Shown piece after piece: positions 24,452-31,000 of a DNA stretch of 35,394 bases. Both the position numbers and the translations under genes were made by a program. Numbering within the stretch: position 1 is the first letter of the stretch; every line of letters begins with the position of its first letter. The notes under the pieces were generated by a model. That model had not been told where the DNA came from. It ran no database searches and saw only the letters and a list, made by a program, of their open reading frames with translations. This DNA comes from Fibrobacter succinogenes (GTDB lineage: Bacteria > Fibrobacterota > Fibrobacteria > Fibrobacterales > Fibrobacteraceae), in the NCBI GenBank assembly GCA_902767785.1, contig CACXIR010000009.1, positions 1-35,394 on the forward strand. The letters run 5' to 3'.

Positions 24452-25177
24452 ATGAAAAAGACATACATCATATTGGGTTCCATTGCAGCGGTTGTCCTAG
24501 CCGTTTATTTGCTGTTGCCCGATGTTTTGTTTGAAGAACTGGTGTTCCCCCTGGAAAAAGGTTCTACGGTCCTTGCTTACGACGATCGTGCCGATGGGGG
24601 AGAATCATCAACCACGTTCAAGGTGACGGATTCGGAGCTTTCCTTTGAATGTTCCTTGGGGGCCGACACGGCCAAGTCCTCTTGGTGTGGACTCCTCTGG
24701 AATTTTGATCCCGATAGCTTAAAGCAGTTCCGCAACTGGATTTTTGTAGATTCCTTGATTTTTGATTTGGATGTTTCGGGGACCCGTGAAGTTTTGGTGA
24801 AGCTATGGGCATACGACCCCGACGTGACGGATATCCGTAAGCCCAAGACCTTCCGGCTTTTGATGAAGGAAATGCCCTTGCATGAGGGCCACAACCGTGT
24901 TTCTATTCCCATGGAACAGCTTTATACTCCGGAGTTTTGGTCCGAGGACTTGAAGGCCGATGTGAATTTGAAACAGAGACATCATGAGACCATGGCCCGC
25001 TTGGAAATCGCTCCCGGTTGGAACCAGGCTCGTGGAACCACCTTCTCTTTGAAAATCCATAGCATCAAGGCGGTAGGCGTCAGCAATTTCAGTTACGGGA
25101 TTGTCCTCGCCATTTTTGTGGTGTTGACCATTGTTGCCGTAGGCTGGCGTCATAAAGTCAAAAACGATGAAGAGTAA
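24452..25177 (+). CDS. Membrane-anchored protein with periplasmic beta-sandwich domain
   Basis: 241 residues. A membrane helix near 4-23 and another near 213-232 (YGIVLAIFVVLTIVAVGW) enclose a ~185-residue periplasmic domain. That domain has the look of a carbohydrate-binding or CIA30-like beta sandwich: LAYDDRADGGESST, SLIFDLDVSGTREVLVKLWAYDPDV, and a closing FSLKIHSIKAVG strand. The cytoplasmic tail is only about nine charged residues. The next gene has the same topology but adds a DNA-binding tail, and the two reading frames overlap by 11 bases (ATGAAGAGTAA). I infer a paired sensor or co-receptor; no enzyme motif is seen. The ligand is unknown. Preceded by the zinc-ribbon gene with a one-base gap. 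Confidence 0.6.
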   Translation: MKKTYIILGSIAAVVLAVYLLLPDVLFEELVFPLEKGSTVLAYDDRADGGESSTTFKVTDSELSFECSLGADTAKSSWCGLLWNFDPDSLKQFRNWIFVDSLIFDLDVSGTREVLVKLWAYDPDVTDIRKPKTFRLLMKEMPLHEGHNRVSIPMEQLYTPEFWSEDLKADVNLKQRHHETMARLEIAPGWNQARGTTFSLKIHSIKAVGVSNFSYGIVLAIFVVLTIVAVGWRHKVKNDEE

Positions 25178-26066
25178 GATTGCAGCCGCCCTGTTTTTGC
25201 TGATAACCCTTGCCCTATGGGTGTATTTCTTTGTTGCTTTCAAGGATTCTTCCTTGGAGCTGTTCCCGGGAAAGGCTTTTGAACTCTACACGCTTACGGA
25301 CCATGAGGCTTTGGGTTTTTCTACTTCCGAGGTGACGGTGAGCGACACCCTGGTAGATGCCGTGGTGAACGTTCGCAGCGGCAAGGCGTTTCCCTTTGCC
25401 GGATTCGGGTTCAACCTGATGTCTAAAAACGGCCGCCCTTCGGGATACTTGGACTTGTCCAAGTTCGATTCCCTGGCGGTGGAGGTTTCCACGGTCCGCA
25501 TGAATTCCATTGGCATTAGGATTTTGACCGATGACCCCGTGTATTCTAGGAAGGGCTTTTATTTGAGTTACAGGCCTCTGGAATTCCAGGTGCCTGCGGG
25601 CAGGAACTTTGTAGAGTCCAAGGCCGCCATCTCGGATTTCAAGACTGCGGAATGGTGGCTTGCGGGGCAGGGCCTGGATAAAGATGACGGCCTCACGTAC
25701 TTTTACAGGTCCATGCTGCTGGAAGTCTTTAACGGGCGGGGGACCTTGCGGGGCATTCCGGATGTCATTCAGGTGAAATCCGTGCGCCTTTGGGGCGAAA
25801 ATCGAGATTTTCGCAGGGGAATGTACGCAGGCCTCGGTTTGTGGGGACTCTTTTTAGTATGCTTTGCCTACATGGCGTTTCGCAAGAAGCCTGGGGAGCA
25901 GTCGCGTGCGCAGATGCAAGAAGTGGCACGGCTCCTGAAAACCACGGACAAATCCCTTGCTGAGATTGCCATAGCGGTGGGGGAAAAGAAAGTCTCCCGC
26001 ATGGAGCGTAATTTTTGCAAGGCCTACGGGCTAAAGCCATTGGAGTACAGGAGGAAAAATGACTAA
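25167..26066 (+). CDS. Membrane-spanning regulator: periplasmic sensor plus single AraC-type HTH
   Basis: 299 residues. Helix 1 (about 5-25) anchors the N-terminus. Residues ~27-215 form a periplasmic beta-rich domain resembling that of the preceding gene (GYLDLSKFDSLAVEVS, GIRILTDD). Helix 2 is at ~219-236. The cytoplasmic tail ends with KTTDKSLAEIAIAVGEKK, then FCKAYGLKPLEYRRK (about 257-297). This is the second helix-turn-helix of the AraC/XylS family, with its usual flanks (L-x-x-T-D-x-S-x-x-E-I-A ... F-K/C-x-x-x-G-x-x-P-x-x-Y-R). The first HTH is absent, so the DNA-binding part is about half the usual 100 residues. I infer a one-component membrane regulator that must dimerise or pair to grip DNA. 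Ligand and targets are unknown. The frame overlaps the previous gene by 11 bases and the next by 8. Confidence 0.65.
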   Translation: MKSKIAAALFLLITLALWVYFFVAFKDSSLELFPGKAFELYTLTDHEALGFSTSEVTVSDTLVDAVVNVRSGKAFPFAGFGFNLMSKNGRPSGYLDLSKFDSLAVEVSTVRMNSIGIRILTDDPVYSRKGFYLSYRPLEFQVPAGRNFVESKAAISDFKTAEWWLAGQGLDKDDGLTYFYRSMLLEVFNGRGTLRGIPDVIQVKSVRLWGENRDFRRGMYAGLGLWGLFLVCFAYMAFRKKPGEQSRAQMQEVARLLKTTDKSLAEIAIAVGEKKVSRMERNFCKAYGLKPLEYRRKND

Positions 26067-28062: not shown

Positions 28063-31000
28063 ATGAAGATTGAAGGCATCGACAAAGTCCTTATCATCGG
28101 TTCTGGCCCGATCGTGATCGGTCAGGCTTGCGAATTCGACTATTCCGGCACCCAGGCTTGCAAGGCCCTGCGCGAACAGGGTTACAAGATTGTGCTCGTG
28201 AACTCCAACCCGGCTACCATCATGACCGACCCGGTCATGGCCGATGCCACCTACATCGAACCGCTGAACGTCGCCCGCCTCACCCAGATTATCGAAAAGG
28301 AACGCATCGAAAAGGAACGCCCGCAGGCCCTCCTCCCGAACTTGGGCGGTCAGACTGGCCTGAACCTCGCCTCAGCACTCAGCAAGGCCGGCGTGCTGGA
28401 CAAGTACGGCGTGAAGGTCATCGGTGTGAACCTCGACGCTATCGAACGCGGCGAAGACCGTGAAATCTTCAAGGAAACCATGCAGAAGCTCGGCATCGAC
28501 ACCCCGCGCTCCGGCATTTGCCACTCTGTGGAAGAAGCTGAAAAGATCGTGGCCGAAATCGGTTACCCGGTCGTCGTTCGCCCGGCATACACCATGGGCG
28601 GTGCAGGCGGCGGTTTCTGCTACAACGTGGAAGAACTCCGCACCATTTGCTCCAACGGTCTTGAACTCTCCATGACGCACCAGTGCCTCATCGAAGAATC
28701 CATCCTCGGCTGGGAAGAACTCGAAGTCGAAGTCGTGCGCGATTCCAAGAACCAGATGATCGCCATCTGCTTCATCGAAAACATTGACCCGGTGGGCGTG
28801 CATACCGGCGACTCCTTCTGCGCAGCCCCGTTCCTCACCATCGACAAGAAGCTCGAAGAAGAACTGAAGGAAAAGGCCTTCAAGATTGTGGAATCCATCG
28901 GCGTGATTGGCGGTACCAACGTGCAGTTCGCTCACGACCCGAAGACCGGCCGCGTGGTGATTATCGAAATCAACCCGCGTACCAGCCGCTCCTCTGCCCT
29001 TGCTTCGAAGGCTACCGGTTTCCCGATCGCCCTCATTTCTGCAAAGCTCGCCGCAGGCCTCACCCTCGACCAGATTCCGTACTGGCGCGACGGAAGCCTC
29101 GAAAAGTACACCCCGAGCGGTGACTACGTTGTGCTCAAGTTCGCTCGCTGGGCTTTCGAAAAGTTCCGCGGCGTCGATGACTGCCTCGGCACCCAGATGA
29201 AGGCCGTGGGCGAAGTCATGGCTATCGGCAAGACCTACAAGGAAACCCTCCAGAAGGCTATCCGCGGCCTCGAAAATGGTCGTTCCGGCCTCGGCTTTGC
29301 GAAGGACTTCAACAAGAAGAGCAAGGAAGAACTCCTTGAAATGCTCAAGACTCCGAGCTCCGAACGCCACTTCCAGATGTACGAAGCCCTCCGTAAGGGT
29401 GCGACCGACGAAGAAATCTTCGCCGCCACCTACGAAAAGGCTTACTTCGTGCAGCAGATGCGCGAACTCGTGGAACTCGAAGAAGAAATGCTCAAGACCC
29501 CGGGCCGCCTGCCTTCCGATGAACTCCTCATCAAGGCCAAGAAGGACGGCTTCAGCGACAAGTACATCGCCAAGATTCTTGGCATCCGCGAAAAGGACGT
29601 GCGCAAGAAGCGTACGGAACTCGGCGTGGTCGAAGGCTGGTGTGCCGTGCCGGTGAGCGGCGTGAAGGACCAGTACTACTACTACAGCACCTACAACTGC
29701 AAGGACGAATCTACCGCTTCCTCCAACCCGAAGAAGATCATGATTCTCGGCGGTGGCCCGAACAGAATCGGCCAGGGCATCGAATTCGACTACTGCTGCT
29801 GCCACGCTGCAATGGCCCTCCGCGAAATGGGTTACGAAACCATCATGGTGAACTGCAACCCCGAAACGGTCTCTACCGACTACGATACCAGCGACAAGCT
29901 GTACTTCGAACCGGTCAGCCTCGAAGACGTTCTCCAGATTTACCACAAGGAAAAGCCGGCTGGCGTGATTGTGCAGTTCGGTGGCCAGACTCCGCTGAAC
30001 ATCGCCCGCGCTTTGAGCGACGAAGGTGTCAAGATTCTCGGTACGAGCATCGACTCCATCGATATCGCCGAAGACCGCGACCTGTTCCGCAAGATGATGG
30101 ACCAGCTCGGCATCCCGATGCCGGAAAGCGGCATGGCCACGAACATCGACGAAGCCCTCGCCTGCGTCAAGCAGATCGGTGGCTACCCGGTGATGATCCG
30201 CCCGAGCTTCGTGCTTGGCGGCCGCGGCATGGAAGTCATCTACGACGAAAACATGCTCCGCGTCATCTACGACGAAAACATGCTCCGCGAATACGTGGCG
30301 AAGGCCGTGGGCGTGACCCCGGATCGTCCGCTCCTCATCGACCGCTTCCTCCACAACGCTTTGGAATGCGAAGCCGACGCCCTCTCTGACGGCGAACACG
30401 TTTACATCCCGTCTGTGATGGAACACGTGGAACTTGCCGGTGTCCACTCCGGTGACTCCGCCTGCATCATCCCGCCGGTGACCATCACCAAGGAAAACCT
30501 CGCGACCATCAAGGATTACACCAGGAAGATTGCTGAAGCCCTCCACGTTTGCGGCCTCATGAACATGCAGTACGCTATCGAAGACGGCAAGGTGTTCGTG
30601 CTCGAAGCCAACCCGCGCGCATCCCGCACGGTGCCTCTGGTCTCCAAGGTTTGTAACACGCAGATGGCCCGCCTCGCTACCCGCCTGATGCTCGGTGCCA
30701 AGCTCGAAGACCTCAAGCTCAAGGAGACAAGAAGTTCAACCACCACGGTGCCAAGGAAGCTGTGTTCCCGTTCGACAAGTTCCCGAAGGTGGACCCGGTT
30801 CTCGGCCCTGAAATGCGCTCCACTGGCGAAGTGCTCGGCCTCTCCGACGACTACGCCCTCGCTTACTACAAGAGCCAGGAAGCCGCAGGTTCCTTCCTCC
30901 CGAACGAAGGTGCCGTGCTGATTAGCCTCTCCGACAAGGTTAACTTGTCTGAACAGGCCATCGAAATCGGGAAGGAATTCCAGAAGCTCGGCTTCAAGAT

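Follow-up and report, generated by a model that had tools for sequence, protein, structure and literature searches.

A membrane-protein pair in Fibrobacter carrying half of an AraC domain, with relatives in full, half and tailless states

We analysed a window of 35,394 nucleotides from Fibrobacter succinogenes (assembly GCA_902767785.1, contig CACXIR010000009.1, positions 1 to 35,394), which holds two genes for membrane proteins, here called P1 and P2, whose reading frames overlap by 11 bases (Table 1). An AlphaFold2 model of P2, built on an alignment of 41 relatives, reached a mean pLDDT of 90 and placed a first transmembrane helix (TM1) at residues 2-25, a beta-rich domain at 27-211 and a second transmembrane helix (TM2) at 213-237, followed by cytoplasmic helices at 242-259, 264-270, 276-287 and 291-298. 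The fold model of P1 has the same topology, with the chain stopping directly after TM2, and both models contain a periplasmic beta jelly roll of about 187 residues. A Pfam scan of the Cys-pair protein that precedes P1 (23947..24450) gave no significant match. Elsewhere in the window, the carB reading frame (28063-30921, carbamoyl-phosphate synthase large subunit) contains a perfect 27-bp tandem duplication at 30235-30289 that encodes two copies of VIYDENMLR, and a low-complexity run of Ser, Thr and Arg gives its C-terminal end the look of a frameshift; carB is thus either disrupted or mis-assembled here.

Table 1. Features of the P1-P2 locus, in coordinates of the window.
Feature	Position	Strand	Evidence
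Small Cys-pair (zinc-ribbon-like) protein immediately before P1	23947..24450	+	Sequence, synteny
P1, 241-aa membrane protein: TM1, CBM11/CIA30-like periplasmic domain (modelled), TM2, short tail, no HTH	24452..25177	+	Intact ORF, fold model
P2, 299-aa membrane protein: TM1, CBM11/CIA30-like periplasmic domain (modelled), TM2, half AraC domain	25167..26066	+	Intact ORF, Pfam, fold model, structural matches
P2 predicted periplasmic CBM11/CIA30-like jelly roll, about residues 26-212	25242..25802	+	Secondary structure of model; CBM11, CIA30 and CBM30 structural matches
P2 half AraC domain, predicted linker helix and HTH2 only, residues 248-298	25908..26060	+	HTH_18 positions 31-80, ToxT/YesN superposition, dN/dS, comparison with full homologues
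AI-2E-type (PerM-like) transporter, start overlapping the end of P2	26059..27186	+	PF01594, E 4.6e-47; downstream neighbour conserved, outgroup genera included

Each monomer of an AraC/XylS regulator has two helix-turn-helix (HTH) motifs with a linker helix between them, about 100 amino acids in all. In P2, the Pfam profile HTH_18 matched residues 248-297 over profile positions 31-80 of 80 only (E 2.8e-7, 31.1 bits against a cut-off of 33.6), indicating that HTH1 is absent. Residues 240-299 of the P2 model superpose on ToxT 213-272 with an rmsd of 1.2 Å over 60 residues, residues 241-296 superpose on the C-terminal domain of YesN at 1.2 Å, and the tail fold superposes on Rns as well. On the strength of these models, the tail is an AraC linker helix followed by HTH2, and P2 therefore falls outside the two-HTH definition of AraC/XylS. 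It shares the fold and sequence of the linker helix and HTH2 with that family (PF12833) and descends from complete AraC domains, but it differs in having no HTH1, in the replacement of its recognition-helix signature and in its membrane anchorage. The topology of both genes, their 11-base overlap and an AraC domain reduced to its second half had been described in an earlier, sequence-only reading, and the reading frames, profile match and fold models bear all three out; a structure prediction, which that reading had named as a check on the HTH fold, gave the superpositions on ToxT and YesN. A PDB sequence search with the tail alone as query returned no match at E 0.01. In a whole-genome HTH_18 scan of the window's own genome (88% complete), the P2 tail was the sole match (positions 30-80), and nine further Fibrobacter genomes gave one to three matches each. 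Three other origins of the tail were rejected: a chance HTH-like match is ruled out by the profile, by the fold and by 38 Fibrobacter genomes with an intact half-tail; an HTH1 hidden upstream or in another frame is ruled out by the short gap, just ~10-25 codons, that half-tail species have from TM2 to the linker helix; and relocation of the tail to a separate gene finds no counterpart in five tailless genomes scanned with HTH_18, which hold only complete AraC proteins elsewhere.

P2 orthologues in three other Fibrobacteraceae genera are 359-387 residues long and carry a complete AraC domain at the C-terminal end; the matches at L053, L055, L062 and L064 span HTH_18 positions 2-79 with E about 1e-23, in the same gene order as in the window, while the L054 orthologue is cut short by the end of its contig. 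What these full orthologues have and the window's P2 lacks is the stretch from TM2 to the linker helix, HTH1 included; their HTH2 aligns with the tail of the window's P2 (ARLLKTTD, for example, is common to L062 and the window). Among the 74 Fibrobacter genomes with P2, 38 have the half-tail and 36 are tailless, and at three sampled Fibrobacter loci (L042, L045 and L049) P2 lacks TM2 too. In most of the other Fibrobacteraceae genera sampled, the pair and its downstream transporter persist without any HTH. On a maximum-likelihood tree of 67 rows, built from P1 and the P2 periplasmic domain with the tail excluded, the four tail states require 7 changes, against 27.5 for shuffled states. Species with the half-tail occupy the base of Fibrobacter, which the tree resolves in part only, and four separate tailless groups are nested inside the genus. 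The most parsimonious order of loss is thus from full to half to none, with HTH1 lost near the base of Fibrobacter and the whole tail afterwards, on at least four occasions inside the genus. Because P1, P2 and the transporter stayed while the tail was lost at least four times, DNA binding is unlikely to be the core role of the pair. Two-HTH orthologues in sister genera, together with paralogues in other Fibrobacterota families, identify the window's P2 as a reduced membrane AraC regulator. A parallel reduction was seen in another genus, with a degenerate half-tail at L058 (HTH_18 positions 28-71, E 0.004) and tailless proteins at L057 and L059.

P2 is present in 74 of 80 Fibrobacter genomes, a tally from which weaker matches to a GGDEF paralogue were left out, and the six genomes without a match are 62-84% complete. 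P1 is present in 73 of the 80 genomes and in 73 of the 74 that have P2. The order Cys-pair protein, P1, P2, AI-2E-type transporter and HU is kept across most of the sampled family, many of the compared genomes being metagenome-assembled, and the most divergent genera still hold P1, P2 and the transporter in that order. Homologues in which the two are not conserved together would have counted against the sequence-only reading; the genome search instead showed the pair kept within a fixed cluster. The only Fibrobacter locus with P2 and no P1 is L036 (genome G018, contig C39), where the zinc-ribbon gene runs directly into P2, leaving a clean gap at the expected site; the whole G018 assembly, rated 8% contaminated, gave no P1 match. 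The reverse loss occurs in genus g4, which has a P1 homologue in genomes lacking a P2 match, as in G092, where it lies outside the usual cluster (L180:2582-3232).

We compared the predicted periplasmic domains with known structures. The P1 jelly roll matched CIA30 (7zkq, Z 16.0) and CBM11 (1v0a, Z 15.2) best, and the P2 jelly roll likewise matched CIA30 (Z 16.4) and CBM11 (Z 15.4), with CBM30 also found; a weak CIA30 Pfam match was present in the P2 orthologue L021. By these fold models, P1 and P2 each have a CBM11/CIA30-like jelly roll as their periplasmic domain. The likeness to CBM11 modules and to CIA30 (NDUFAF1), with Z of about 15-16 over about 160 residues, is one of fold only, as the P1 and P2 domains are ~10-19% identical to them and, in contrast to them, are tethered to the membrane at both sides. 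Although CBM11 belongs to a carbohydrate-binding class, CIA30 has the same fold, which counts against saccharide sensing by the pair. P1 grouped with P2 weakly in a deep tree of both proteins and their paralogues (SH-aLRT 76), so an origin of the two by tandem duplication remains a suggestion. Two tandem, overlapping transmembrane AraC genes on the minus strand of another locus (L159:68-1204 and 1158-2318), both with an AraC domain, offer a possible picture of such a pair arising before one partner lost its output.

A paralogue search of 168 Fibrobacterota genomes with a full-length orthologue as query revealed many proteins in which a CBM11-like domain between two transmembrane helices is followed by a complete AraC domain; a single genome gave as many as 11 scored matches, some of them not full-length. 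P2 shares this architecture with full-length members such as L053, L064, L079 and L090, among which are direct orthologues in sister genera. In contrast to P2, which has lost HTH1 from a common architecture and so lacks the complete AraC domain that marks the family, these proteins have both HTHs, keep the canonical [YF]NN..HFNR signature and in several cases have a glycoside hydrolase as neighbour. Membrane one-component regulators had been said to use other HTH types; the complete AraC domains of P2 orthologues and of paralogues across the phylum overturn that statement for Fibrobacterota. A Pfam-confirmed glycoside hydrolase adjoins 10 of the 25 paralogue loci read: GH16 at L078, L079 and L091; GH9 at L090, L151 and L163; GH2 at L149 and L154; GH5 at L148; and GH8 at L165. 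The GH9 protein at L151 itself has CBM11 and CBM30 domains. These adjacencies hint at a wider family that detects plant polysaccharides or their products and controls hydrolases from the membrane, a lead only, because the neighbours scanned were picked by eye and carry no background rate. No glycoside hydrolase adjoins the conserved P1-P2-transporter cluster, so the signal of the pair may differ from that of the wider family. At the paralogue loci read outside Fibrobacteraceae, no P1 partner was seen. The window's genome also encodes a 457-aa relative (L002:820-2193, contig C52) in which the same transmembrane-periplasmic-transmembrane layout is fused to GGDEF, a candidate membrane diguanylate cyclase with a related sensor, indicating that the sensor is modular; weak matches of this length occur in nearly all Fibrobacter genomes.

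Across 44 close pairs analysed by a counting method, dN/dS was 0.103 in the HTH helices; the periplasmic domain gave 0.086 and TM2 gave 0.160. The half-HTH is thus constrained like the sensor domain and, where kept, evolves under purifying selection as judged from its coding sequence. We compared the recognition region of 30 half-tails with that of 29 full-length membrane AraC proteins. The AraC HTH2 core is retained, with A268, V271, G272 and F283 invariant in the half-tails, P291 and Y294 kept in 29/30 and R295 in 28/30. However, the recognition signature of the full homologues, [YF]NN-[ST]HFNR-F-K, is absent from the half-tails and replaced: [YF] at position 273 becomes Glu (23/30) or Ala, Asn at 274 becomes Lys (29/30), His at 278 becomes Arg, Ala, Cys or Gln, and Asn at 280 becomes an invariant Glu (30/30, GF/GY giving way to GE), while position 284 (Lys) is variable and Arg or Lys at 281 is retained. 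The half-tails are also more basic than the full homologues, with a net charge of +4.9 versus +3.4 over the tail and +2.9 versus +1.6 over the recognition helix. These changes fit a domain whose job has changed. The added positive charge favours a kept DNA contact with new specificity, whereas the invariant Glu midway along the recognition helix and the lost H..N signature favour a role in protein contact; on balance, residual DNA binding by the half-HTH seems plausible, if slightly short of probable.

The explanation that we consider somewhat likely as a whole is that P1 and P2 form a receptor pair derived from a transmembrane AraC one-component regulator whose output has been pared down. The pair would be an inner-membrane receptor of Fibrobacteraceae. 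The ancestral P2 had a complete AraC domain, with which it would have controlled transcription while anchored in the membrane. In the Fibrobacter lineage, an internal loss took away the juxtamembrane segment and HTH1, so that TM2 now leads straight to the AraC linker helix and HTH2. The two CBM11/CIA30-like domains most likely pair together and may read the state of the envelope or of saccharides, with the signal crossing through the transmembrane helices and coupled to the co-translated AI-2E-type transporter. Where kept, the half domain would be a selected cytoplasmic output, and our first guess is that contact with DNA persists with altered specificity, each P2 supplying one HTH and a P2 dimer two; other lineages would have dropped this output and retained the receptor/transporter role. 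Several findings weigh against the pared-down receptor, among them that the tail is dispensable, being absent in 36 of the 74 Fibrobacter genomes with P2 and in most sampled sister genera, and the recognition signature has given way to Glu280 (30/30) and Glu273 (23/30). More tentatively, P2 may be a membrane-tethered DNA-binding receptor with a single AraC HTH2 per monomer and a rebuilt recognition helix, working with a paralogous CBM11-like co-receptor and the transporter.

The half-HTH could instead have ceased to bind DNA and been exapted as a protein-contact module, for example one that holds a P2 dimer together or makes contact with the transporter or with some soluble partner protein. 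Purifying selection in the absence of a conserved DNA-recognition signature would be expected of such a module, as would the acidic residues in the recognition region (E273 in 23/30, E280 in 30/30), the loss of HTH1 and the persistence of the pair and transporter after tail loss. However, the tail and recognition helix are more basic than those of the full homologues and the core AraC positions (A268, V271, G272, F283, P291, Y294 and R295) are kept, and we regard this alternative as rather unlikely.

The sequence-only reading went further than the pared-down receptor, proposing a receptor of two proteins that answers a periplasmic signal, with direct binding of DNA from the membrane as its essential function. 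The anatomy and conservation of the pair and its full-AraC ancestors agree with this proposal, as does the analogy to the co-component systems VtrA/VtrC and ToxR/ToxS, which have an N-terminal CadC-like HTH and a lipocalin-like partner (PMC9214523). Like those systems, P1 and P2 are encoded by adjacent, overlapping genes (an 11-base overlap, together in 73/74 genomes), and both are membrane proteins with periplasmic domains, with one cytoplasmic HTH between them. However, P1-P2 has neither a CadC-like N-terminal HTH nor a lipocalin-like partner: its HTH is C-terminal, AraC-type, half-sized and often absent, and P1 and P2 share a CBM11/CIA30-like fold and have two transmembrane helices each. 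As HTH type, HTH position and partner fold all differ, P1-P2 is not a member of the co-component class. What stands of the proposal is a conserved membrane pair with a fold of a carbohydrate-binding class, a selected cytoplasmic AraC HTH2 and membrane AraC ancestry; what does not is DNA binding as the function of the pair, with 36/74 tailless and the recognition signature lost. Since the pair persists without any DNA-binding domain in half of the genus and in most sister genera, the proposal in its full form is improbable. That the tail is a decaying, functionless relic of the ancestral AraC domain would suit the stepwise passage from full to half to none on the tree and the independent degenerate half-tail of L058 with its tailless sisters, but is very improbable given 38 open frames among 38 Fibrobacter half-tails, a dN/dS of 0.10 in the HTH helices and invariant positions specific to the half-tail group.

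We know of no earlier natural half-AraC regulator, and in the open-access literature that we searched, we found no prior description of membrane-anchored or single-HTH AraC proteins. If P2 does bind DNA as a receptor with a single AraC HTH2 per monomer, it would be the first natural half-AraC regulator known to us, with the tailless state found in the same genus and the full one in the same family. These relatives form a natural series in which a membrane receptor's AraC domain shrank to a single HTH and finally disappeared, with the receptor's partner and operon retained, making the sufficiency of one AraC HTH directly testable in matched species. The analysis also uncovered membrane AraC regulators that carry CBM11-like sensors and form a family found across the phylum; several are encoded beside cellulase or glucanase genes, and these hydrolase-linked proteins are candidates for glucan sensing in the cellulose-degrading Fibrobacterota.
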